Shown here: positions 7 through 12,801 of the stretch, in pieces
Numbering within the stretch: position 1 is the first letter of the stretch
Layout: each line of letters opens with the position of its first letter
DNA from: Spartobacteria bacterium
GTDB lineage: Bacteria > Verrucomicrobiota > Verrucomicrobiia > Chthoniobacterales > UBA10450
Assembly: GCA_003134785.1 (NCBI GenBank)
Contig: PLCN01000019.1
Location: forward strand, 62,001-126,000
Reading direction: 5' to 3'
DNA length: 64,000 nucleotides
Made by a program: the position numbers and the translations under genes
Notes under the pieces: generated by a model
Database searches by the model: none
Seen by the model: only the letters and a program-made list of their open reading frames with translations
Told to the model about the DNA's origin: nothing

Positions 7-783
7 TTACGCCTTTGGCTGAGACGGCGCGGGACTGGCCGCTGGATTTGGTGGCTCGCCTGGTTTCGTAGCCGCCGGCTCTCCCCCGGGAAGTTCCGCG
101 TCCTCAGGAACTGCTTTCAAATCGGGTTCGGTAAAGGAGTCGGGATGATTGGCGAGTTCCTTTCGCAATGCGGCGATTTGCTGCGGCGAGACGGGTCCGC
201 CTTTGTTCCCCCACTCCTGGCGAATGAAGGTGAGCACATCGGAGATCTTCGCATCGGTCAACGTTTTCTCCCACGGCTGCATCACTGCTGTGCCGAACGT
301 CGCTCCTTTGACCGTGAGCGGACCCTGCAATCCTTTCAGCACAATCATTCCGAGGCGCCGAGTTCCACCGTTCACATATTCCGAACCAGCCAGCGGCGGA
401 TATTGGCCCGCGACGCCGGTACCGCTCATCTGATGGCAGGTGGCGCAGTTCGCCGAGAAAATCTTTTTGCCGCGGTCGGCAGGTGAGAGTTCCGCTGTTT
501 GCGCACCGCCCGGGCCGGTCGCGCCCGATTTGGTCGGACGCGGCGCGCCGCCGAGAGGATCGAGCCCATCGCCGCTGAAATTTCCTGAGTAACGTCCGAG
601 ATAAGCGCCGCCAAAAAAGATGGCGAGACCGTAGATCGCAATCAACCAGAGCGAGAGCGGCTCGAGGCCCACACGCGGCTCGCGCTTTTCGCGCTGAATG
701 GCGGCGTGAACCTGTTGGACGTCTTCGGTCTCACCGTAGTCCATCCCCTGCCGCACTCTGCGCTTCGGTGAGTTCTCGTTCAT
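7..783 (-). CDS. Membrane-anchored monohaem cytochrome c (CcoP-like)
   Basis: About 258 residues. One N-terminal membrane segment (around residues 47-64, LWLIAIYGLAIFFGGAYLG) is followed by a class I cytochrome c domain with a single CATCH haem site and a Pro/Ala-rich tail. The ATG at 783 is chosen because it overlaps the stop of the preceding CcoO-like gene (ATGA); a longer reading frame to 888 runs into that gene. Third member of the cbb3-like trio that ends the ACIII operon. True CcoP normally carries two haems; only one is visible here. Inference: it accepts electrons from ACIII or the CcoO-like subunit on the periplasmic side. Confidence 0.85.
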   Translation of the reverse strand: MNENSPKRRVRQGMDYGETEDVQQVHAAIQREKREPRVGLEPLSLWLIAIYGLAIFFGGAYLGRYSGNFSGDGLDPLGGAPRPTKSGATGPGGAQTAELSPADRGKKIFSANCATCHQMSGTGVAGQYPPLAGSEYVNGGTRRLGMIVLKGLQGPLTVKGATFGTAVMQPWEKTLTDAKISDVLTFIRQEWGNKGGPVSPQQIAALRKELANHPDSFTEPDLKAVPEDAELPGGEPAATKPGEPPNPAASPAPSQPKA

Positions 784-1760
784 TTCACCTCCTTCGCCGG
801 AGCGGGTGATGAAGGCGGCGCCGCGGTCACCTTCACCTCTTTCAACGCGTGTGATTGATCGAGCGACATCAGATACGCGACCAGACATTTCGCATCGTAG
901 GTCGGCACCACTTCCCAGCCGTCCGGAAGCGCATCCGGGCCACTCAAGATTAAAGCGTCCGCCGCGCGTTCCCCGCCGACGCGCCGTTTCTCATAAAGGA
1001 AACGAAATGCCGGCATGTTGGAATCGTTCGAGACACTGCGCGGACTATAGAGATGGCGATGATGCCACGGCGCAGTGTAAGGGATCGGCGCGCCATTGGC
1101 CGCAACGGTGGTGTCGGCACTCGACGCAGCAGTGGTAACCGGGCTTGCGGGAGATGGCGCAGCAGCTGGTGAGTTTGCCGGAGCCGAAGAAGGCGAACTG
1201 GCCGCGGCAATAGCTTTCGCTGGCGACGCGGCCGGAGAAACTGAAGGAGCCGCCGCAACTGCGGGCGAAGGCGCGGCGGTCGCCGCAGGAGAAGCAGCTG
1301 GAGATGCGGAAGCGGCGGGCGAAGTGGATGGAGATGTTCCGGGCGCGGGGCTCGCAGCAGTTGTGGTCGAGGGCGGCGGAGCATTCTGATCTTCGACCGG
1401 CGCGCGTTTTCCAATGTTCGCGAGATCCGGACCCATCCTCATTTTGCCCAGCAATACCGGACGTTCGAAAAGATAATCGCGCGGCGCACTACGGCGCTCG
1501 CCCCATTTGCGATCGATGTCGGAGGCCGCGTCATCGGCGCGGACTTGCTGGCTGTGGCAATAGACGCAACCATTCGCCGCATAGATCCGCCGGCCGCGCT
1601 CGGCCATGCCCGACTTCGGCGCCGGATAGGCGTCGTTTCCGTCTTCGTCCATTTGCGGATCGAGGTGTCCGATTTGGTAGTTCGGAATCAGAATCAGCCC
1701 CGCCCAAGAGAAGGCGAAGGTGCCGAAGATTCCGAGAAAGAGCGGGACAATCCCTTTCAT
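780..1760 (-). CDS. ccoO: cbb3-type oxidase subunit II (CcoO-like) with long Ala/Pro/Ser linker
   Basis: 326 residues. N-terminal membrane anchor (residues 5-27), then a haem c site CVYCHSQQ followed by a conserved region with WGERRSAPRDY and MRMGPDLANIG, as in CcoO. Residues about 125-215 are a low-complexity Ala/Pro/Ser linker that splits the cytochrome fold; the C-terminal part (HLYSPRSVSNDSNMPAF, then DAKCLVAYLMSLDQS) again matches CcoO. CcoO is usually near 200 residues, so the linker accounts for the extra length. Start overlaps the CcoN-like stop by 4 nt. Carries electrons to subunit I in genuine cbb3 oxidases; here subunit I lacks an active site, so its partner function is open. Confidence 0.88.
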   Translation of the reverse strand: MKGIVPLFLGIFGTFAFSWAGLILIPNYQIGHLDPQMDEDGNDAYPAPKSGMAERGRRIYAANGCVYCHSQQVRADDAASDIDRKWGERRSAPRDYLFERPVLLGKMRMGPDLANIGKRAPVEDQNAPPPSTTTAASPAPGTSPSTSPAASASPAASPAATAAPSPAVAAAPSVSPAASPAKAIAAASSPSSAPANSPAAAPSPASPVTTAASSADTTVAANGAPIPYTAPWHHRHLYSPRSVSNDSNMPAFRFLYEKRRVGGERAADALILSGPDALPDGWEVVPTYDAKCLVAYLMSLDQSHALKEVKVTAAPPSSPAPAKEVK

Positions 1761-3265
1761 AGACGCGCCTCGAGAGCCTCCTCTTCCTTCGGGTTGAGAA
1801 ATGTGGGAACGCTCGCCGTCCGGCCCAAACCAAAAAGCATCAGGCCGAAGTGAAACGCGAAAATGAAATGCGCGACGGTGAGCAGCAAGCCGGAAACGCT
1901 GCGGCCGCGCAGATACGGCAGGATTGTTTGCGTGCTCTCACTAAAGGCGAGCGACGGATCGTTCATGCTGCTGCCCTGCGCAAAACCGCCGACGAGCAGC
2001 ATCAGCACCATCAACCCGACGCCATACGTGGACGACCAAAAATGGAGCTTGATCAGCGAGGCGTAACGCCATTCGCGCCCGACCAATCGCGGCACGATGT
2101 AATACATCGAACCGAACATCACCATGGTGAAGAACGCGTACAGTCCCATGTGAGAATACGCGATACTCGCCTCGGTGAATTGCGTATATCGCGCGATCGA
2201 GCGCAGTGAGATCAACACGCCGACCAGGCTGAAGACGGTGTAGGAGATCGCGCCGAAAACCGTGAAGCGCAGCGTCGGGCTATAACGCAACAGGCCAAAA
2301 TATCCGCGCATGGTCATGTGATGATTCAGCCCGACCGTCGCCACGGGAATAATGGTCAGGATCGTCGCGGCGATGCTGGCGGTGATCATCCACGCGGGGA
2401 ACGGTCCGTCGACCAGCCGTTGCATTCCCGTCCAGCTCGCGAAGAGCGCGTAAGTCCAAAATCCGATCGCCGCCAGATGATAGCTATAAACCGGGCGCCC
2501 GATCACTTTCGGGATCATATAGTACGCCGTGCCGAGCCCGATCGCGCCGAACCACAGGAAGAGAAGATTATTCGCGAACCACCAGGTCACGGCTTCCTGC
2601 ATCACGCCTTGAACGGGGACGACGAAGAGCATGATTTGTGCGGCGCCGTAGACCCACGGGAACCAGAGGAACGCGCCGAGCAAATACCATTGCGTAATGT
2701 AAATGTTGTCGCCGCGGCGGAAACGGAACATGAGCAACGCCCAGGAAACGACCAGCGAGTAAGCGACGAAGAGAACGATCGCGGCGTAAGGCGGAAACTC
2801 GAGCCACTCATATCCGGTGCTGTCGCCCACGAGAATTCCACCGACGCCGAGAAGCACGCCGAGATTCCAAAAAGCCGCGCCGCCGATGAGCAGCAGTGGA
2901 TGCCGCAAAGTCGTACGACACAAGCGCGCCATCAGCCAGATCGCCGTCCCGATGCCGGCCATCGACGCCCAGCCGTAAACCATCACGTTCATGTGCGCCG
3001 GACGGACGCGACCCCAGGTAAGAAAGCTCACGTCCGAGAGAAGCTCCGGCGAGTGCAGTTTAAACGAGGTGAATCCGGCCAGCAGCGTTCCGAGCAGCAG
3101 CCAGAAAATTGCGGATCCGTAAAAGAACAAAACGGGAAGCCGCGTCGATGCATCGATCAACGCGCGTTCGACGCGCTCGACATCGTGAATCGTGACGTCG
3201 GAGTCCACCGCCGTTGCGATCGGTGCGGTGTCGGGCGCGATTAATGGAACGTCGGCAGGATTCAT
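1757..3265 (-). CDS. Haem-copper oxidase subunit I homologue (CcoN-like) without the O2-reducing site
   Basis: 502 residues with about 12 membrane segments; overall layout is that of cbb3 CcoN. Low-spin haem b ligands are present: His91 (RPAHMNV) and His372 (AYSHMG). The catalytic ligands are not. WWFANN has Asn232 where CcoN has the first CuB His; WTGMQR has Gln282 and Arg283 where CcoN has the CuB His-His pair; Ala276 replaces the cross-linked Tyr; Tyr370 replaces the haem b3 His. The NOR-type histidines are also absent at these places. The reading frame is intact and surrounded by intact partners, so it is unlikely to be a decaying gene. Probably an electron-transfer or structural subunit attached to ACIII rather than a terminal oxidase. 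Confidence 0.88.
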   Translation of the reverse strand: MNPADVPLIAPDTAPIATAVDSDVTIHDVERVERALIDASTRLPVLFFYGSAIFWLLLGTLLAGFTSFKLHSPELLSDVSFLTWGRVRPAHMNVMVYGWASMAGIGTAIWLMARLCRTTLRHPLLLIGGAAFWNLGVLLGVGGILVGDSTGYEWLEFPPYAAIVLFVAYSLVVSWALLMFRFRRGDNIYITQWYLLGAFLWFPWVYGAAQIMLFVVPVQGVMQEAVTWWFANNLLFLWFGAIGLGTAYYMIPKVIGRPVYSYHLAAIGFWTYALFASWTGMQRLVDGPFPAWMITASIAATILTIIPVATVGLNHHMTMRGYFGLLRYSPTLRFTVFGAISYTVFSLVGVLISLRSIARYTQFTEASIAYSHMGLYAFFTMVMFGSMYYIVPRLVGREWRYASLIKLHFWSSTYGVGLMVLMLLVGGFAQGSSMNDPSLAFSESTQTILPYLRGRSVSGLLLTVAHFIFAFHFGLMLFGLGRTASVPTFLNPKEEEALEARL

Positions 3266-3290: not shown

Positions 3291-3932
3291 TCATGGGGTT
3301 TTCCCGCGGACCGGCAGCGGAGTTCCGGGTGCGGATGGTGAATGTTTTGGCGATGGCGAGACCGGGGCTTTAGCCGGAGCGGAGGAAGGCGAAGCGGCGG
3401 GAGAGGCTGATGGTCCGGGTTGCGTTCCTGGCGGGGCCGGCGCCGGATTGGTGGCGGCGGCGGGTTGATTGTGGCTCTCAGACTTTGGTCCGGTAATGGA
3501 CGTAGGTTTTGGTGTCCCAGTGGGACTGGCGGAAGGTGATGGAGCGGCAGAAGCAGTCGCCGGCGCGGTTGAGCTTTGCGGCGCGGGACTCTCCGGTGCC
3601 GGCGTTGCGATCGGATTGGCCGCAGCGGGCTTTTTCTGCGACAGCTCGGCCACGGTCAATTTCATGGCGTCGTTGATCGGAATCCGCACGACACCTTTCG
3701 TTTTATCCACCCACCCATAGCTCGTCAGCGCACTGGTGGTTTGATCGCGCATCGTTTGGAGTTTCTCGGCCCGAGCCTTCGCGCGCGTTTTTTCGTATTT
3801 GGTTCCGCGCGGGGACGCACCGACTACGACCAGCGCCACCAAACCGAAGAACGCGAAAAGCAGCACCACACCAATCCAGGTCGAAAACATGGAGCGCGGC
3901 TCAAACTTGGATTTTAATTCGTTAGGCGTCAC
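3291..3932 (-). CDS. Small membrane-anchored protein of the ACIII/oxidase operon
   Basis: About 213 residues from a GTG that begins one base after the actF stop; an internal ATG at 3890 is the alternative, and a longer frame to 4043 overlaps actF. One membrane segment (residues 16-38), then a basic helix and the motif SYGWVDKTKGVVRIPI (residues 71-86), followed by a Pro/Ala/Ser-rich tail of about 110 residues. I recall short proteins with this GWVD...VVRIPI motif next to respiratory complex genes in other bacteria, but I do not know a demonstrated function. Position between actF and the CcoN-like gene suggests an assembly or linker subunit. Confidence 0.7.
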   Translation of the reverse strand: MTPNELKSKFEPRSMFSTWIGVVLLFAFFGLVALVVVGASPRGTKYEKTRAKARAEKLQTMRDQTTSALTSYGWVDKTKGVVRIPINDAMKLTVAELSQKKPAAANPIATPAPESPAPQSSTAPATASAAPSPSASPTGTPKPTSITGPKSESHNQPAAATNPAPAPPGTQPGPSASPAASPSSAPAKAPVSPSPKHSPSAPGTPLPVRGKTP

Positions 3933-3933
3933 G

Positions 3934-5136
3934 TCAATTTGTGGTGCGGAGAGATTCGAGGAGACGCGGGTCGCGATTCGGGAAAAGCGAAGTCCTGGCC
4001 GCGATGCGCAGAAAGACAAAGGCCAGCGTGGCGCCCATCCCAATGAGCGGCAGAAAATCCCAAACGGTCACATGCAGACCGGTCCGGTAAAGCATCGGGA
4101 GAATCACGATATAAATGTCGACGAGCTGCATGAAGACGAGCCAACCCGCGATCAGGCAAAGTTTGCGCGCGCTTTTTTTCGGCGAACGCCAGAGCAGGAT
4201 CGTGAACGGAATGAAGAACCGGCCGATGACCAGGAAAAGGCTCATGGCATTCCATGACTCCGTGTTTCGCCGGATGAAATACTCGGTCTCCTCCGGCATG
4301 TTCGCGTACCAGATCAGCATGTATTGGCTGAAGCCGATGTATGCCCAGAAAACGACGAACGAGAGCATCCACTTACCCATGATGTGGTAATGCTCCATCG
4401 TGACGGTTTCCTTCAAATATCCGGCGTTGCGCAGGCCCGTGATCACGAGCACCAGCAACGACATCGAGCTGCCCGCGGCGCCCGCGAAAATGTAAACGCC
4501 CCACATGGTCGAGAACCAGTGGTAGTCGACGCCGAGGAGCCAATCGTAAGCGCCGAAGGTGAGCGAGAGAGCAAAAAGCGGCAGGGAAGTGAATGCGACC
4601 TTCCGCATGTTTATGGTGTAGCCGGGATTTCCGTCGCGATCCTGCCGGATCGAAAAGCGGCGGAAGAGCAGCGTCGCGCAGATAAAAAAAGCGAAATAGA
4701 AGAGGGAGCGGACGAGGAAGAAGTGCCAGTTCAGATACGCGCGTTTGCTGTCGAGAACGGGATCATGGCCCGGATGGATATTCATCCAGTCATAAATATG
4801 ATGCCGGAAAATCAGGATCGGGATGAAGAAGACCAACATTACCGGCATGAGCATGGCCAGGTTCTCCAACTGCCGGCGGACGACGACCGACCATTCCGCG
4901 TCAGTGACGTGGTGGACGATGATCCAGAAAAAACAGCCGGCGATTAGGGTGAAGAAAAAAGCGAAGGCAAAGAGCCAGGAAAAACTGAATTGGTGCTTGT
5001 CAACGAAGGCGCCGACGATGCTGAGCGCAAGGCCGATGAGTCCGACGATCGCCAGGATGAACGATAAACCGGCGAACCGGTTCGGCTCGATATATTCGCC
5101 CTCCGGCACCGGAACAACGTCAGAACGTTCGCTCAT
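3934..5136 (-). CDS. actF: Alternative complex III subunit ActF (quinol:cytochrome c oxidoreductase membrane subunit)
   Basis: 400 residues, about ten predicted membrane helices, no cofactor-binding Cys motif. Matches the NrfD/PsrC-related membrane subunit of ACIII by length, hydrophobic pattern and position after the cytochrome gene actE. In ACIII this subunit pairs with ActC in the membrane core and is thought to take part in proton movement. The start at 5136 overlaps the end of actE (ATGA), indicating coupled translation. Confidence 0.9.
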   Translation of the reverse strand: MSERSDVVPVPEGEYIEPNRFAGLSFILAIVGLIGLALSIVGAFVDKHQFSFSWLFAFAFFFTLIAGCFFWIIVHHVTDAEWSVVVRRQLENLAMLMPVMLVFFIPILIFRHHIYDWMNIHPGHDPVLDSKRAYLNWHFFLVRSLFYFAFFICATLLFRRFSIRQDRDGNPGYTINMRKVAFTSLPLFALSLTFGAYDWLLGVDYHWFSTMWGVYIFAGAAGSSMSLLVLVITGLRNAGYLKETVTMEHYHIMGKWMLSFVVFWAYIGFSQYMLIWYANMPEETEYFIRRNTESWNAMSLFLVIGRFFIPFTILLWRSPKKSARKLCLIAGWLVFMQLVDIYIVILPMLYRTGLHVTVWDFLPLIGMGATLAFVFLRIAARTSLFPNRDPRLLESLRTTN

Positions 5137-5873
5137 TTTTTCGCCGCCTCCGGTTTTGCTTCAGGTTTGGTTTCGGCCGGTTTGTCCAGCTCCGCGCGAT
5201 GCTCCAGCGGCACATCCGCTTCTGTCGCGTTCTGGCTCCGCTGCAACGCGCGCAGATAGGCGATGATCGCCCAGCGATCGGTCACGGGCACGTTCGGTCC
5301 GTAAGCCAGCATGGTGTTTTTGCCGTTGGTGATCGTGTTGAAAATTTCGCCGTCCGCCATCTTGCGAATCCGCTCGTCCTGTAAAGTAACGACGGTCGCG
5401 AGGCCATATTGCTTGGTGATTCCGTCACCCGCGGCGAGCGCGCCGTGGCAAACCGCGCAGTTGATATTGAAGCGCTGTTTCCCGCGCTCCATTATTTCGC
5501 CGGTCAGCGTCGTCGGGAATCCGGCGCCCCAATTCGCGCCCATCTTGCCGGTCGAATAGTAATCCGTCTCGCCTTCGGTGAACCCGAGGTGAGGCTGGGT
5601 GTTCGTCTCGGCCGCGACGGGCGCTGCTCCCGGAGCAGACTCACTGGCGTTCGGCATTTCGTACCCAAGCGGCACGGTGCCCGCCACGGGAACGCGAGCA
5701 CCGCGGCCATCGGCAAAAAATCCGAGCGGCGCCTGTGCGCGCACTTTCGGCTGGCGCACCATGTCCGGAAAAACTTCGATGGGCGAGCCGGTGCTCTTCT
5801 GCCCGCGAAAACCGAAGACGGCCACGATCGCAATTCCGATCAGCAGAAAAATGAGAAAGAATCCGCGGAGCAT
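5133..5873 (-). CDS. actE: Alternative complex III monohaem cytochrome c subunit ActE
   Basis: 246 residues with an N-terminal hydrophobic segment (residues 3-21), a cytochrome c domain with one haem motif CAVCHG, and a Lys/Glu/Pro-rich C-terminus. The distal Met is probably in the region MLAYGPNVPVTDRWAI. ActE is the membrane-anchored haem subunit that hands electrons from ActA onward. It begins 3 nt after the actD stop and ends inside the actF start, so D-E-F are translated as a block. Confidence 0.9.
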   Translation of the reverse strand: MLRGFFLIFLLIGIAIVAVFGFRGQKSTGSPIEVFPDMVRQPKVRAQAPLGFFADGRGARVPVAGTVPLGYEMPNASESAPGAAPVAAETNTQPHLGFTEGETDYYSTGKMGANWGAGFPTTLTGEIMERGKQRFNINCAVCHGALAAGDGITKQYGLATVVTLQDERIRKMADGEIFNTITNGKNTMLAYGPNVPVTDRWAIIAYLRALQRSQNATEADVPLEHRAELDKPAETKPEAKPEAAKK

Positions 5874-5876
5874 AAT

Positions 5877-6431
5877 TTAGTCTTCGTGGATGATGGTGAT
5901 GTGCTGGCCGCCGCTTTGTTCCAGGATCTCCTGCGCCTCGAGCTCGGTGAAGCGCTGGTCGCGCGCTTCAATCACGAGGAAAAATCCGTCGTTGGTCGCG
6001 CGGCTGAATCGATTCCAGTTGAAGACCGGATGATACCAGCGCGGCAGGCCGTTCATGATCAGCATTGCGAAAAACGCGGTGAAGGCCGAGAAAAGGATCG
6101 TGAGTTCGAACATGATGGGGAAGAAGGCCGGCACGGTGAAAAAGTTGCGCGGCTTCCCGTGCACGATGAGCGGATAGATGAGCGAGGAGGGGCCAAATTC
6201 CAGCACCGCCGCTGTGAGCAATCCCGTGATTCCTCCGGCCAAAACGAATGCGCTCAGCCACGATTTGCCGAGGCCCATCGCTTCATCCATGCCGTGGATC
6301 GGGAACGGAGAATGCACGTCCCAGCGTTTGAAGCCGGCATCGCGAACCATTTTCGCGGCCTCGTAAAGTGCGGAGGCGCTCGGGTATTCTGCGCCCATGC
6401 CGTAGACTTTATTTCCGTAAGGAGTTCTCAT
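5877..6431 (-). CDS. actD: Alternative complex III subunit ActD (DUF3341)
   Basis: 184 residues. Soluble N-terminal part containing YGMGAEYPSASALYEAAK and DVHSPFPIHGMDEAMGL, then two membrane helices (about residues 58-82 and 95-120), typical of the DUF3341 subunit of ACIII. The start ATG is preceded by a strong ribosome-binding site (GGAAAGGAG). That site and the ATG lie inside a 20-nt sequence that is repeated exactly at the actC stop 122 nt upstream, so the initiation region was duplicated by the insertion between the two genes. Confidence 0.9.
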   Translation of the reverse strand: MRTPYGNKVYGMGAEYPSASALYEAAKMVRDAGFKRWDVHSPFPIHGMDEAMGLGKSWLSAFVLAGGITGLLTAAVLEFGPSSLIYPLIVHGKPRNFFTVPAFFPIMFELTILFSAFTAFFAMLIMNGLPRWYHPVFNWNRFSRATNDGFFLVIEARDQRFTELEAQEILEQSGGQHITIIHED

Positions 6432-6569
6432 GTGCGCTCCTTTCCGCTGTAGCCGCCGCCCTGTGGGCGGCGTTTTGCTGAGATGGAATCCACGCGCTCT
6501 CCCACGCTTCGCACAGCGAAGCGGCTACAGGAACGGCGGCAAAGCGCTTTCATGTGCGCTCCTTTCCGC
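6428..6569. repeat. Short hairpin element (family R1) flanked by 20-nt direct repeats between actC and actD
   Basis: Two exact 20-nt copies at 6428-6447 and 6550-6569 enclose 102 nt. Inside, 6448-6529 begins TGTAGCCGCCGCCCTGTGGG and ends GCGAAGCGGCTACA, giving inverted ends and internal hairpins. Related copies are at 45171-45255 (inverted) and 53159-53269. Read on the minus strand, the direct repeat contains a Shine-Dalgarno sequence and ATGA: in one copy TGA ends actC, in the other ATG starts actD. This looks like a target-site duplication at an ancestral ATGA stop/start overlap. Confidence 0.85.
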
Positions 6570-8010
6570 CCGCGGCCACGGTGTGATGTTCAGCCGGCGA
6601 GGCGTGATGCGGATTGGCCTCGGGCAGCACGATCTTCACTTCCGACATCGCGATCATTGGCAGGTAGCGAATGAAAAGCAGGAAGAGCGAAGTGAAAATT
6701 CCGAACGTGCCGATGAACGTCCAGATATCCACCCAGGTCGGGTAAAACATTCCCCACGACGACGGAAGAAAGTCGCGATGCAATCCGCCGACGATGATGA
6801 TAAAACGCTCGAACCACATCCCGGTGTTCACGCACATGCAGACGAAATAAACGACGTAGATGTTTTGCCGGAACCTCTTGAACCAGAAGAGCTGGGGCGA
6901 AACCGTGTTGCAGAAAAGCATGCCGACCCACCAGTACCACCAGTAGGGGCCGAAGATGCGATTGTAGAATGCGAACTTCTCGTACTGATTGCCGCTGTAC
7001 CACGCGACGAAAAATTCCATCGCATAGGCATACCCCACGATCGAGCCGGTGAGCAAAATGACCTTCGCCATTTTGTCGATGTGCTGCGGCGTAATGATGT
7101 CCTGGAGTTTGTAAATGGCGCGCGCCGGAATGAGCAGCGTGAGCACCATGGCGAATCCGCCGAAGATGGCGCCGGCGACGAAGTAGGGCGGGAAAATCGT
7201 AGTGTGCCAGGTCGGGATGATCGACGTCGCGAAATCAAAGGAAACGACACTGTGCACCGAGAGCACCAGCGGCGTCGAGAGACCGGCGAGCAGTAGATAC
7301 GCCATCTCGTAATGGCGCCAGTTGCGGTTAGAGCCGCGCCAGCCGACGGCGAAAATTCCGTAAAGGAATTTTTTGATCTTTGTCGTCGCGCGGTCGCGCA
7401 AAGTCGCGAGATCAGGAATGAGGCCGGTATACCAAAAAAGGACTGAGACCGAGAAATAGGTCGAGACCGCGAAAACGTCCCAGAGGAGAGGGCTGCGGAA
7501 GTTCGGCCAGATGCCGTAATTATTCGGCAACGGTGCGAGATACCACGCCATCCAGACACGGCCGACGTGCACGCCCGGAAAAATCGCGGCGCAAATGACC
7601 GCGAACAGCGTCATCGCTTCCGCGGCGCGGTTGATGGACGTGCGCCATTTTTGCCGGAGCAAAAACAAGATCGCGGAGATCAGTGTGCCGGCGTGACCGA
7701 TACCGATCCAGAAAACGAAGTTGGTGATGTCCCAAGCCCAGCCGACCGGATGATTCAATCCCCAGGTGCCGACGCCGGTGGAAATCTGATATCCGAGGCA
7801 GAAGAGACCGAACATCGCCACCATCGAAGTGATGGCGAACGCGACCCACCACCAGCGCGGCGCGTTCGCTTCGATGACGCCGGAAATTCGCTCGGTGATC
7901 CAACTGAAGTTCCGCTTGTTCAAGACCAGCGGCACCCGCGCCAACGGCCTCTCGACCGAAGCGGAAGCTTCACCTTCGATTACATCTGGAGCTGTAGTCG
8001 CACCGTCCAT
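6550..8010 (-). CDS. actC: Alternative complex III integral membrane subunit ActC (NrfD family)
   Basis: 486 residues with about ten membrane helices and no cofactor motifs; the NrfD-like quinone-interacting membrane subunit of ACIII. Recognisable stretches include [20 protein letters not shown] near residue 80 and [19 protein letters not shown] in the second half. ActC contacts the iron-sulfur part of ActB and forms the quinol site. It is separated from actB upstream and actD downstream by repeat elements, unlike the tight junctions further down the operon. Its stop codon lies in the first of the two 20-nt direct repeats when read in the gene direction. Confidence 0.93.
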
Positions 8011-8184: not shown

Positions 8185-11100
8185 TTACCCCTCCAGTTTC
8201 ACTTCGGCTTCGCGGTGCTCGGCCTTCGATTCGGGCCTTTCATGACCCAGGCTGGCGACCGCGATTCGTTTGGCATCAGGCATCTTCGGATTCGGATTTC
8301 TGATCCGCGCCAGATAACTCGTGCGCGTGTTCACATTTAGATATTCGAGCAGCCGGTAATTGCGGTCTTGCTTTTTCATCTTCGAAACGCGGCTCTCAGG
8401 ATCGTTGATATCGCCAAACACGATCGCGTCGGTCGGGCAGGCTTGCGCGCATGCGCTGGTGAACGAATCGCGCGGAATGCGCGTGTTGTTCGAAGCACCG
8501 GCACGGACGTGCGCGGTAATCTTCGCCTCTTCGATTCGCTGAACACAAAACGTGCATTTTTCCATCACGCCGCGCATGCGCACCGTGACGTTTGGATTCT
8601 TCTGCAACTTCACTATGTCGGGCGCACCCTTTTTCGTCAGCGGCCCGAGATATTCCTGATAGACGGTGACGAGGCCGAGAACCTTCTTCTTGCCGATCGG
8701 CCTCTGATTGTAGTCGAAGAAATTAAACCGGCGCACTTTGAACGGGCAGTTGTTCGCGCAATACCGCGTGCCGATGCAACGGTTATAGGCCATGACATTG
8801 AGGCCATCCTCGCTGTGCACGGTCGCGTTGACCGGACAAACGGTTTCGCACGGCGCGTTCTCGCAGTGCTGGCACATCATTGGCTCGTGCACGATCTCGG
8901 GGTTTTCCGGATATTCGCCGCGATCCTGATTGTACGGCTTCTCGCTCGCGTAGTAACGATCGAGCCGCAGCCAATGCATCGCGCGGCCATGACTGACCTG
9001 AAGTTTGCCGACGATCGGAATATTATTTTCGCTCTGGCAGGCGACGATGCATGCGCTGCAACCCGTGCAAACATTCAGATCCACCGACATTCCCCATTGC
9101 TGGACCGCGTCGAGCGCGGGGTGGCTGTAAAGCGACGGCAGCTTCGCCGGCAATTCGTCATCGCCCGCGATCTTCTTCACGAACTCGTTGTCTTCGCGAT
9201 AATGCTCGACCGTCGCCTCGCGCACGAGACCGCGGCCTTCGATGCTCCAGTGGTCCTGCGTAATCGAAAGCGCGTAAGTCCCGTCCGCCTTCGTTACCTT
9301 GATGTTCTCGATCGTTTTTCCGTCAGCCCGGATGAAATGCGGATTCGAAGTCGTGCGCAACAAGTAGCCGTTGAAGCCCGCTTCCTCGCCGACCGGTCCG
9401 GTGTACTTCCGCCCATATCCGAGCGGAATGGTGATCGACGGGTCCGCGTGCCCGGGCGAGATCAACGCCGCGATAACAAGGTCGCGTTTGACCGGCTTGC
9501 CTTGTGCGTCCAGCGATTTTTCTGTGATCGAAATGTTCACCAAATCCCCGGTCTCGACTTCGATGTGTTTCGCGAAAGCGGGACTCATGATCGCGGCATT
9601 GTCCCAGGTCAATTTCGTGATCGGATCGGGCAATTCCTGCAGCCAGCCATTATTCGCGTAACGGCCATCATCCATCGCGTAACTGCGCACGAGAACGATC
9701 TCCGGAGAATCGAGCGTGGGCGGCGCCGCCGGAGCCCAAAGCGTGTGAGCGACTCCGCCGGCGTTGTTTGAATTAAAGGCGGGCGGCTTGTCTTTCAGCT
9801 CAATATGCGACGCAAAGCCGTCCCGCAAAAGGCGCGACCATGCGGCCGCGAAATCGCCCGGAGGTGCAGTCGCGCGAAATGTTTCCTGAACCAGCTCGGG
9901 CCCTTCCACTTTCGGTCCGCCGAGCAATGCATTCATCAGCTCGATCTCCGAAAGGCCGCCGAAGAGAGGAAGGATCATCGGCTGCATCGCGAGATAGGCG
10001 CCGTCGGCCGTGCGCGCGTCGCCCCAACTCTCCAGGTAATGAGCGGCCGGAACGTGCCACCGGCTCAGCGTCGAAGTCTCATCTTCGTAATAACCCAGGC
10101 GCACCACGTCCGGCACCTTCTTCTGGAGATCGGTCCAATCGAGCGACGCTTTCGCCGTCTTGTCCTGGGCCTTCGCCGCGGAGCTAGCCTGCGTCAGGGC
10201 TCGCGGCGCATTGTAAGCGGGATCGCCGCCGAAAATGAAAAGCTGCTTTACCCGGCCCGAATTGATGTCCAATCCCAGTTGAATGATGCTGTTGTTCTTC
10301 GGGCGCGGCACCTCTCGCACCAGAAGAGTCGTGCCCATATTCTTGAGCGCCGAATTGATCGCATACGCCAGGAACTGCACCACGACCGGTTGATGCGAGC
10401 CGGCCAGGACAAGGCTCGCGCCTGGCTTCGAAACGAGATCGTTGACCGCTTCGTTCAGCCAATTTTCCTCGAACTTTTGCGCGGCTTCTTCCTCAGGCGT
10501 TTTCGCTCCGGTGGCGCCAAACGGCTTTAACGTCGCGATGGTGGAAAAGAGTCCCGCGTCTTTCGTCGCCGCCGCAACCTTGGTCGCGAGCGAAAGCGCG
10601 ATCTCCGGAATCTGACTGGCAGGGCAGCGCAAACGGTGGTCCGCCATCGCGCCCGTGAGCGTGTAGCGATTCTCGACCACATAGAGCCGGTTCATCGTGT
10701 CCTTCGCCTCGGTGACGCGACGTCGCGAAGAGAACCCGCGGACCGCAGCAAGATCGCCATCGCCGCAATCAAGGAAATCGTTGTCGAGCGTGAGCACCAC
10801 GTCGGCGCGATCGAGCCGGGGAACGAGCCGGACACCGGGTCCGAAACTCATTTCGGTCGCGAAGCTCTGCGCTTCAGTCAGCAGCGGATCGTAGACGCAC
10901 CAACGCATCTTTGGGAAAGTCTTTTGCAACTCCGCCCGGATGCGTTCCCGCGTGGGCGAATGCACTTCCTCGACCAGAAACGCGAGACCCGCGCCACCGT
11001 CGGCCGCGATTTTCGCGCGCAAGTCCGCGAGATATTTATCGAACGCAGCTCGGTCGCGCGTCTCGAAGCTTTCCTTCTTCTGACCGCCCTCCTCCTTCTC

Positions 11101-11580
11101 GGTTCTTTCCACGAAGCGTTTCGAGCGCGCCGGATCGTAGAGATCGAGGATGGAAGCCTGCGCATACGCGTCGGTCGCGCCGCCACTCGCGGGGTGAAGC
11201 GGATTGCCATCGACCTTGGTCGGGCGGCCGTCGTGTGTCGTGACCACGAGTGGAATCGCGCCGGTCCGGCGCGGCATCGCCGTGGCGTAAAAGAGCGACT
11301 TGCCCGGGATGGCCCATTCAACACTCTTGGTAAACGGCACCAGGTGCGCTTCCGGGCGGCGACAACTCGTTAGGCCAAAGCCTGCCAGCGCCATCGACGC
11401 GCCCATGAGTTTCAAAAATCCGCGGCGCGACCAGTCGTCGCCTTCGAGTTGGGCCGCACCCGCGGGAAATTCCCGCTCGAGCCAGCCACGAAATTCCGGC
11501 GTATCGCTCAGCTCGCCCAAGCTGCGCCAATAACGCTTCCCGGTCAGCTGCTCAGGCGGATGCGCGAAAACGTGTTTCAT
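8185..11580 (-). CDS. actB: Alternative complex III large subunit ActB (molybdopterin-like plus iron-sulfur)
   Basis: 1131 residues from the ATG at 11580; a longer frame to 11724 only translates the upstream repeat element. The N-terminus has the usual YWRSLGELSDTPEF block and a twin-arginine signal (SRRGFLKLMG, residues 51-60). The first two thirds are a degenerate molybdopterin-oxidoreductase fold. The C-terminal third holds four ferredoxin-type cysteine clusters, including CTGCSACIVAC, CQHCENAPCETVCP, CIGTRYCANNCP and CAQACP. ActB sits on the outer face of the membrane and carries electrons from quinol to the haem subunits. TatC encoded at 51.7-52.5 kb could support its export. Confidence 0.95.
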   Translation of the reverse strand: MKHVFAHPPEQLTGKRYWRSLGELSDTPEFRGWLEREFPAGAAQLEGDDWSRRGFLKLMGASMALAGFGLTSCRRPEAHLVPFTKSVEWAIPGKSLFYATAMPRRTGAIPLVVTTHDGRPTKVDGNPLHPASGGATDAYAQASILDLYDPARSKRFVERTEKEEGGQKKESFETRDRAAFDKYLADLRAKIAADGGAGLAFLVEEVHSPTRERIRAELQKTFPKMRWCVYDPLLTEAQSFATEMSFGPGVRLVPRLDRADVVLTLDNDFLDCGDGDLAAVRGFSSRRRVTEAKDTMNRLYVVENRYTLTGAMADHRLRCPASQIPEIALSLATKVAAATKDAGLFSTIATLKPFGATGAKTPEEEAAQKFEENWLNEAVNDLVSKPGASLVLAGSHQPVVVQFLAYAINSALKNMGTTLLVREVPRPKNNSIIQLGLDINSGRVKQLFIFGGDPAYNAPRALTQASSAAKAQDKTAKASLDWTDLQKKVPDVVRLGYYEDETSTLSRWHVPAAHYLESWGDARTADGAYLAMQPMILPLFGGLSEIELMNALLGGPKVEGPELVQETFRATAPPGDFAAAWSRLLRDGFASHIELKDKPPAFNSNNAGGVAHTLWAPAAPPTLDSPEIVLVRSYAMDDGRYANNGWLQELPDPITKLTWDNAAIMSPAFAKHIEVETGDLVNISITEKSLDAQGKPVKRDLVIAALISPGHADPSITIPLGYGRKYTGPVGEEAGFNGYLLRTTSNPHFIRADGKTIENIKVTKADGTYALSITQDHWSIEGRGLVREATVEHYREDNEFVKKIAGDDELPAKLPSLYSHPALDAVQQWGMSVDLNVCTGCSACIVACQSENNIPIVGKLQVSHGRAMHWLRLDRYYASEKPYNQDRGEYPENPEIVHEPMMCQHCENAPCETVCPVNATVHSEDGLNVMAYNRCIGTRYCANNCPFKVRRFNFFDYNQRPIGKKKVLGLVTVYQEYLGPLTKKGAPDIVKLQKNPNVTVRMRGVMEKCTFCVQRIEEAKITAHVRAGASNNTRIPRDSFTSACAQACPTDAIVFGDINDPESRVSKMKKQDRNYRLLEYLNVNTRTSYLARIRNPNPKMPDAKRIAVASLGHERPESKAEHREAEVKLEG

Positions 11581-11582
11581 CT

Positions 11583-11713
11583 GGGGAGCGCACGCGCCTC
11601 GCGTGCCGATTTTGGCGCCCTCGCCGAAATTGCGTTTTTTTTCCGTAAAAGACCAGTTGCGTCCGGCGAGGCGCCGGCCGCGGCACGCGAGGGCGAGGGC
11701 GCGTGCGCCCCCC
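11583..11713. repeat. GC-rich hairpin element between actA and actB
   Basis: Left arm near 11584-11607 (GGGAGCGCACGCGCCTCGCG) pairs with a right arm near 11690-11713 (GCGAGGGCGAGGGCGCGTGC). The loop contains an A/T-rich run (TTGCGTTTTTTTTCCG). It occupies most of the 166-nt gap between actA and actB; no second copy of this family was found in the window. Could be a mobile hairpin element or an internal attenuator/mRNA processing site. Confidence 0.7.
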
Positions 11714-11746
11714 AGAAACCGCAATCGACCCTTGTCAGGTTTCTAT

Positions 11747-12472
11747 TCATCGATGGCACCCCTGGCAATTGAGCGGCGGTTGAATATTCCAGCGTTCCTT
11801 CAAAGTCTGGCCGATCTCCCGTTGCGTCAGCTTCTGCTTCTTCGACCAATCGTCCTTCGCGTCTGCCGGCTGTCCGTATTTCGCCACGAAACTCGCCACA
11901 TTTTCCTGCTCGGGTTTCCAATCCAGATTGGTGATCTGCGTTTCGGGCCGCAGAAAATTTTCCGGATGCCGATGGCACTCGAGGCACCAAGCCATGCTGT
12001 GCGGTTTCGCGTGATAAACCACCGGCATGTGATTGACCGGCCCGTGACAGTTCGCGCAACTGATGCCGCGATTCACGTGGGCCGAGTGATCGTAGTAAAC
12101 GTAGTCCGGCGTGCGATGCAGTTGCACCCACTCGATCGGTTGCCCGGTTTTCCAACTCGCCCGCACCGGCTCCAGCTTCGGATTATCTTTCTGCACCTGG
12201 GTGTGGCAGGCCATGCATGTTTGCGTATTCGGCAGATTCGAAGCCGCGGCCACATCCACAAAGCTGTGGCAGTAACGGCAATCCATCCCGAGCTGCGAGA
12301 CGTGCAGATCGTGCGGGAACGGCACCGGCTGGATCGGCTGATAACCGACGCGGGTGTATTTCGGCGTGATGTAATACCAGGTCCCCGCGGTCAGGCCGCA
12401 AACAATGAACGTGCCGCAGATCGAAATCTTGAGCGGCAGCCAATTGGACCAGCGTGGAAAAAAATTCGCCAT
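11747..12472 (-). CDS. actA: Alternative complex III pentahaem cytochrome c subunit ActA
   Basis: 241 residues from the ATG at 12472 (MANFFPRWSNW); an upstream ATG at 12514 is possible but adds an atypical extension. An N-terminal membrane anchor (about residues 15-33) is followed by five CXXCH haem sites: CRYCH, CMACH, CANCH, CLECH and CQGCH. ActA is the exposed multihaem subunit that collects electrons from ActB. It is the first gene of the operon and is transcribed away from the amidohydrolase gene, so the operon promoter should lie in 12473-12801. Confidence 0.93.
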   Translation of the reverse strand: MANFFPRWSNWLPLKISICGTFIVCGLTAGTWYYITPKYTRVGYQPIQPVPFPHDLHVSQLGMDCRYCHSFVDVAAASNLPNTQTCMACHTQVQKDNPKLEPVRASWKTGQPIEWVQLHRTPDYVYYDHSAHVNRGISCANCHGPVNHMPVVYHAKPHSMAWCLECHRHPENFLRPETQITNLDWKPEQENVASFVAKYGQPADAKDDWSKKQKLTQREIGQTLKERWNIQPPLNCQGCHR

Positions 12473-12801
12473 AGCGCTTAACGAACTGTGATTCCCCGAG
12501 GGGCCAGTCGCCAAGATAAAAACGGCGCAAACTGGTGGTTAGGATGTGCGGCGCTCAGAGGTCGTTTAAGTTAAAGTTGATCGTCGCAACACAGGGAGAG
12601 GCCACGACTCTATAAATCGACCTGCGCTTGGCAAAAGAAAATTCGTTCCCATTTCGTTTCTTCGCCGTGAAAACGCGCGATTCCTATCTTGATACAAAGA
12701 AGCGGCGGTTAAGCAAAACCGTAAAAACAAAATTTTTCGGCGGCGCTGATCGTCGCGAACTGCGCTCGACGTTCGGGTCGCGGCTCGCGAAGATAATCGA
12801 G
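12473..12801. promoter_or_regulatory. Divergent intergenic region upstream of the act operon and the amidohydrolase
   Basis: A 329-nt gap between two divergently transcribed genes, so it must hold both promoters. I see no convincing -35/-10 pair, operator palindrome or small reading frame with a ribosome-binding site; the part near 12640-12745 is A-rich. Confidence 0.4.

Follow-up and report, generated by a model that had tools for sequence, protein, structure and literature searches.

What does a CcoN-like subunit do inside an ACIII operon once every ligand of its oxygen-reducing site has been replaced? The question is raised by ccoN', a gene in the window (the whole stretch of DNA analysed, 64,000 nucleotides) of a member of the Chthoniobacterales, from the family that includes Ca. 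Udaeobacter; the closest named record is 91% identical (palsa soil).

Fold, ligands and operon context of CcoN'

The product of ccoN' belongs to the COX1 family by its PF00115 match (Table 1). Against the NCBIfam ccoN equivalog TIGR00780 it scores 162.6 bits, below the cut-off of 583.15, and is a weak CcoN only. Pseudomonas stutzeri CcoN (3mk7) is matched by phmmer at E 6.5e-40, and in this alignment H91 and H372 stand opposite the ligands of the low-spin haem b, a bis-His pair that is kept. The three CuB His positions are occupied by N232, Q282 and R283, the position of the cross-linked Tyr by A276 and that of the proximal His of haem b3 by Y370. The register is fixed, because the flanking motifs align ungapped, and it is confirmed by relatives 50-55% identical to CcoN' that read HHYHHHH in the seven ligand columns. 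The AlphaFold model of CcoN' (mean pLDDT 89.6) has an intact 12-helix fold closest to CcoN. Among the chains ranked high by Foldseek, which both structural comparisons cover, 3mk7 CcoN is matched with TM 0.85/0.91 by Foldseek and with Z 47.9 by VIA (rmsd 1.9 A, 445 residues); Z is 46-48 for CcoN chains, 41.5 for NorB and about 36 for A-type oxidases. Another register restoring the ligands, which the earlier note on this DNA had named as a possible refutation, is ruled out by the structure match and by the intact relatives in the same columns.

The residue assignments of that note hold in the 3mk7 alignment and among relatives. Its description of an intact gene overlapping a CcoO-like partner was likewise accurate (502 aa, ATGA overlap), as was that of an operon with six act genes, actA to actF all being present. 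Like the CcoN/FixN of cbb3 oxidases (3mk7, 8smr and 6xkw), CcoN' has the fold, the overlapping downstream CcoO partner, a c-haem subunit and, in most of the window family, the low-spin haem b ligands; unlike them, it has neither CuB ligands nor cross-link Tyr nor b3 His, is 24-25% identical and lies inside an ACIII operon.

Table 1. Operon genes and ligand codons of the window, with the evidence for each
Feature	Position	Strand	Evidence
cyt c, membrane-anchored monohaem (CATCH)	7..783	minus	PF00034 E 1e-13
ccoO', CcoO/FixO-like monohaem c subunit	780..1760	minus	PF02433 E 1e-21; CVYCH, axial-Met motif present
ccoN', CcoN-like subunit, O2 site lost	1757..3265	minus	502 aa; PF00115 E 2.2e-57, TIGR00780, 3mk7 alignment
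Tyr370 (haem b3 His position) to His372 (haem b ligand kept) codons	2150..2158	minus	3mk7 alignment + relatives
Gln282 and Arg283 codons, remaining two CuB His positions	2417..2422	minus	3mk7 alignment + relatives
Ala276 codon, cross-linked Tyr position	2438..2440	minus	3mk7 alignment + relatives
Asn232 codon, CuB His position	2570..2572	minus	3mk7 alignment + relatives
His91 codon, low-spin haem b ligand kept	2993..2995	minus	3mk7 alignment + relatives
orfX, one membrane helix, YGWVDKTKGVVRIPI motif	3291..3890	minus	no Pfam hit
actF	3934..5136	minus	conserved order; no Pfam hit
actE, monohaem c	5133..5873	minus	PF13442
actD	5877..6431	minus	PF11821 E 6e-57
actC, NrfD-like, quinol-side	6550..8010	minus	PF03916 E 1e-23
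actB, molybdoenzyme-like + Fe-S part	8185..11724	minus	Fer4 models; 5' end may be shorter
actA, pentahaem c	11747..12514	minus	5 CXXCH in relatives with same operon

The operon runs actABCDEF, orfX, ccoN', ccoO', cyt c, the start of the last gene being set at a conserved Met. orfX is conserved between actF and ccoN', is present too in ACIII operons without CcoN, and possibly encodes an overlooked ACIII subunit. The window CcoO' carries a long Ala/Pro/Ser-rich insert within its haem domain, between CXXCH and the axial Met; the spacing between these motifs has a median of 171 (up to 338) in the window family versus 73 in intact relatives. Downstream, beyond the window and on the same strand, lie the genes of an aa3 oxidase (CtaD, E, F and C; locus L024), accompanied by CtaA, CtaB and a Sco-like gene. 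The gap before them contains a pyridine-nucleotide oxidoreductase gene, and the CtaC of this oxidase has no CXXCH. Besides CcoN', the genome encodes two COX1 proteins only, that of this aa3 and that of the oxidase at L237. The latter locus (contig C17 of genome G000, 70000-89900) is a second ACIII operon, with a caa3 whose CtaC carries haem c and without a CcoN-like gene; it is a natural control within one genome.

Recurrent ligand loss beside act genes

The survey of relatives ran from genus to phylum level and included named genomes, most of them with neighbourhoods of up to 20 kb. In the class sample, a strong ActD match is found in 108 of 151 genomes, and 101 of these 108 (counted from two listings) have a CcoN-like match at E <= 1e-30. 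The seven ActD-positive genomes without CcoN include two ACIII-caa3 clusters (L222 and L223), a methanotroph from which the module is absent (L221), an ACIII lacking a neighbouring oxidase (L224), and three cases that are short or lie at a contig edge. The 176 distinct ACIII-type CcoN proteins comprise 39 intact ones (HHYHHHH), 2 intermediates and 135 that are dead, 63 in the window family and 72 elsewhere. The survey of act genes and residue pattern that the earlier note had proposed thus finds ligand loss recurring beside act genes. The two intermediates, L189 (HHCSHHH, in a MAG titled Chthoniobacter flavus) and L037 (HRYHHHH, G138), are suggestive of incipient active-site loss, or of sequencing errors.

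All 63 distinct window-family members have lost the O2 site, which rules out a recent mutation in this one genome, a second test set by the note: 39 distinct intact relatives do occupy the same operon position, yet the loss is family-wide and recurrent. Both haem b His are kept in 50 of the 60 family members with full data, and one or both are lost in ten, spread over several sub-lineages. Outside the family the haem b pair is retained in 0/72 dead proteins; 66 of these keep at most one of the seven ligands and 28 keep none. Among the columns still conserved at 80-100% in these 72, most are structural Gly, Pro and Trp residues.

Gene order is fixed. Among loci with enough flank, Act genes lie upstream of CcoN in all 72 other dead, all 26 window-family and 35 of 37 intact cases, CcoO lies downstream in all three groups without exception, and the operon is conserved across dozens of families. 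CXXCH is present in all but one of 201 CcoO sequences and in all but one of 180 operon cyt c sequences, the latter with an axial Met in 170 of 172. At least one further haem-copper oxidase is encoded in 62/62 dead-CcoN genomes checked. Local variants occur: genus g87 (L069, L070 and L071; G160, G147 and G142) has only actE-actF near ccoN' and an ActD match on another contig, so that its ACIII operon looks split, and family f6 (L032, L034 and L063) has two cyt c genes in tandem after ccoO', with 2 and 1 haem motifs respectively, adjoining aa3. Verrucomicrobiota-type CcoN loci in records titled Acidobacteriota, Omnitrophota and Isosphaeraceae (L164, L190 and L196) are probably mislabelled MAGs.

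Purifying selection acts on the gene. Pairwise omega (NG86) for CcoN' in the window genus is 0.082 (0.064-0.110), similar to that of the Act subunits, and group means in six other dead groups range from 0.058 to 0.222. With all O2-site ligands gone, the earlier proposal that CcoN' is non-catalytic for O2 is upheld as a prediction from sequence.

Losses of the CcoN O2 site are at least four in number and independent. A mixture-model tree of 49 proteins, from which the ligand columns were excluded, can be explained only if the O2 site changed six times and the haem b pair five times. In it the dead groups join different intact groups: L030; the L066-L094 group; the L033-L093 group; and the group of the window family, which includes L031/L032/L063 and L068/L069/L076. 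Within one genus, dead L033 and intact L040 share 93% identity in ActC and 48% in CcoN (pN 0.04 and 0.36, respectively), and every L033 gene has its nearest relatives in one and the same group. Because the two differ far more in CcoN than in ActC, loss of CcoN function can be quick, with fast CcoN change thereafter. A single origin of the dead copies is rejected on this contrast, on the shared nearest relatives of the L033 genes and on the six changes in the 49-row tree. A quick 127-row tree does group the dead copies together (support 89, with long-branch warnings), a grouping attributed to long branches.

Possible roles of a CcoN body in ACIII

Intact counterparts indicate where CcoN' may come from. 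In Verrucomicrobiae of Opitutales type and others, an intact C-type oxidase linked to ACIII shares its operon position and gene order, at about 43-56% identity; unlike CcoN', it retains all seven ligands. PMC8498564, citing Refojo 2010, likewise places a C-type oxidase beside ACIII in Opitutaceae. Plasmid-borne CcoN-CcoO-cyt c trios of Paraburkholderia and Azoarcus have the same ccoN-ccoO pair and cyt c, and contig C78 of G009 has a stand-alone CcoN-CcoO pair (38-47% identity to CcoN'); unlike CcoN', these have intact ligands and no ACIII genes alongside. Intact ACIII-linked modules in Opitutales-type and other orders and stand-alone trios in Betaproteobacteria (38-48% identical to Verrucomicrobiae proteins of this type) together suggest that a working oxidase became associated with ACIII and later ceased to function in many lineages, a loss probably caused by takeover by an A-type oxidase. 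The module probably began as an ACIII-linked C-type terminal oxidase (CcoN-CcoO-cyt c), intact still in many relatives. The window family has parted with the O2 site and is usually left with one bis-His haem b site, and most other dead lineages have shed nearly all haem and copper ligands.

On balance, CcoN' is probably a scaffold derived from such an oxidase, holding in the membrane the c-cytochromes through which ACIII is connected to aa3. We infer that it is a physical member of ACIII; its 12-helix body is what selection maintains, and it would anchor CcoO' and the operon monohaem cyt c on the complex. Electrons would pass from the haems of ActA/ActE through CcoO'/cyt c to the CuA of an aa3 whose CtaC has no haem c of its own. 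The ACIII-aa3/caa3 supercomplexes of Flavobacterium johnsoniae and Rhodothermus marinus also have actA-F and an ACIII feeding an A-type oxidase, but no CcoN/CcoO (PMC8552683). Their connection is ascribed to the sixth-haem domain of ActA, to ActE or to the haem c of caa3: in F. johnsoniae the proposed route to aa3 is the sixth haem of ActA or ActE, and in R. marinus ActE leads to caa3 (PMC8552683). In the present system five haem motifs are present in ActA and none in CtaC, which is why CcoO' and cyt c are proposed as carriers.

The state of CtaC agrees with the distribution of the module. CXXCH is found in the CtaC of 0/46 CcoN-bearing clusters versus 3/4 ACIII clusters without CcoN (one being L237), the latter group consisting of four clusters that are not phylogenetically independent. 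CtaC without haem c occurs in clusters with intact CcoN too, so the correlation tracks the module and not the loss. Of the 73 dead clusters for which 8 kb of flank is available, only 30 have aa3 genes close by on the downstream side, so the aa3 partner is often encoded elsewhere. The methanotroph G045 has ACIII and aa3 subunit genes without CcoN, CcoO or cyt c, and its CtaC has no haem c; because the two complexes exist there without the module, the CcoO'/cyt c bridge is dispensable in this organism.

One observation sits uneasily with a pure scaffold, which would not need them: both haem b His persist in most of the window family. This lineage may still bind the low-spin haem b, and within it CcoN' might conduct electrons between the c-haems and another acceptor, a quinone or the oxidase, as a working part of ACIII. 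The joint retention of H91 and H372 in five-sixths of the family despite a wholly lost O2 site, along with the intact fold, speaks for such a conduit. In known cbb3 geometry, however, electrons on a low-spin haem b with neither haem b3 nor another cofactor behind it have nowhere to go, and the ten losses within the family, together with the broken pair in every dead relative elsewhere with the same operon, also count against it. Even for the window lineage a conduit is therefore unlikely. The earlier note had offered it as one example; because haem b ligands are lost so widely among dead CcoN, it is unlikely as a general role, and haem b is not essential in the sister lineages, where its ligands are gone. 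The alternative role named there, a structural hub, fits widespread ligand loss with a kept fold.

Loss of cofactors with conservation of fold and operon position would also fit an assembly or regulatory factor that matures or docks ACIII or aa3, or senses haem or redox state, the c-cytochromes then forming no electron bridge. The close association with two monohaem c subunits, whose haem motifs hardly vary, suggests electron transfer instead, and makes such a factor distinctly improbable. Reduction of another substrate (NO or nitrite) at an unusual metal site might be read from the fold similarity to NorB and from the non-His ligands of some haem-copper relatives of NOR type. The high-spin b3 His that NorB requires is absent, the FeB/metal His positions are lost, and the replacement residues are not conserved across the dead lineages; this activity is very improbable. 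As to a decaying pseudogene, the lost catalytic ligands are what it would explain, and the long open frames across the window family, the low omega and an operon kept in dozens of families leave it scarcely credible.

Methanotrophs and the reading of subunit I genes

The ligand loss bears on an oxidase already discussed in print. Genes of pmoA type occur in all 11 genomes of family f19, and the methanotroph search found no pmoA in the order of G124. The ACIII-linked CcoN of f19 reads SESSHFV or ADAAHQ(T/V/I) at the seven ligand positions and thus retains no more than one His ligand out of six. That of M. infernorum V4 has six His in 479 aa, none of them where a different register would require one, so that this escape is ruled out as well; the model of this haem-free homologue still matches CcoN (TM 0.85). 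No intact C-type oxidase was found in the f19 genomes with a profile that detects intact fused cbb3 elsewhere. The high O2 affinity of Methylacidiphilum has been ascribed to a cbb3 oxidase adjoining ACIII (PMC6688271), and the ACIII-adjacent gene of methanotrophic Verrucomicrobiota has been counted as a cbb3 oxidase (PMC8498564, PMC10205796 and PMC11102522). Judged by its residues, the published 'cbb3 oxidase' beside ACIII is a dead CcoN and cannot be a cbb3 oxidase.

A search for descriptions of a non-catalytic CcoN returned none in the literature within its reach, which included few subscription papers. Dead ACIII-linked CcoN is widespread and, within the literature searched, undescribed. 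Collectively, CcoN' is a haem-copper subunit I that has been kept in use after losing its chemistry. The presence of such a subunit is routinely taken as proof of a terminal oxidase, a reading that is wrong for one gene across a whole class, abundant soil bacteria and acidophilic methanotrophs among its members. Because one operon position is occupied by sites that are intact, partly lost or wholly lost, the module offers a natural series for studying how an enzyme turns into a scaffold and by what route electrons leave ACIII for the oxidase, an open question (PMC8552683). Whether most ACIII-bearing Verrucomicrobiae possess a class-wide pseudo-oxidase, in which a haem-free scaffold adds CcoN'-CcoO'-cyt c to ACIII and wires it to aa3, is in our judgement evenly balanced; if true, the supposed 'cbb3 oxidase' of the verrucomicrobial methanotrophs would be among its members.
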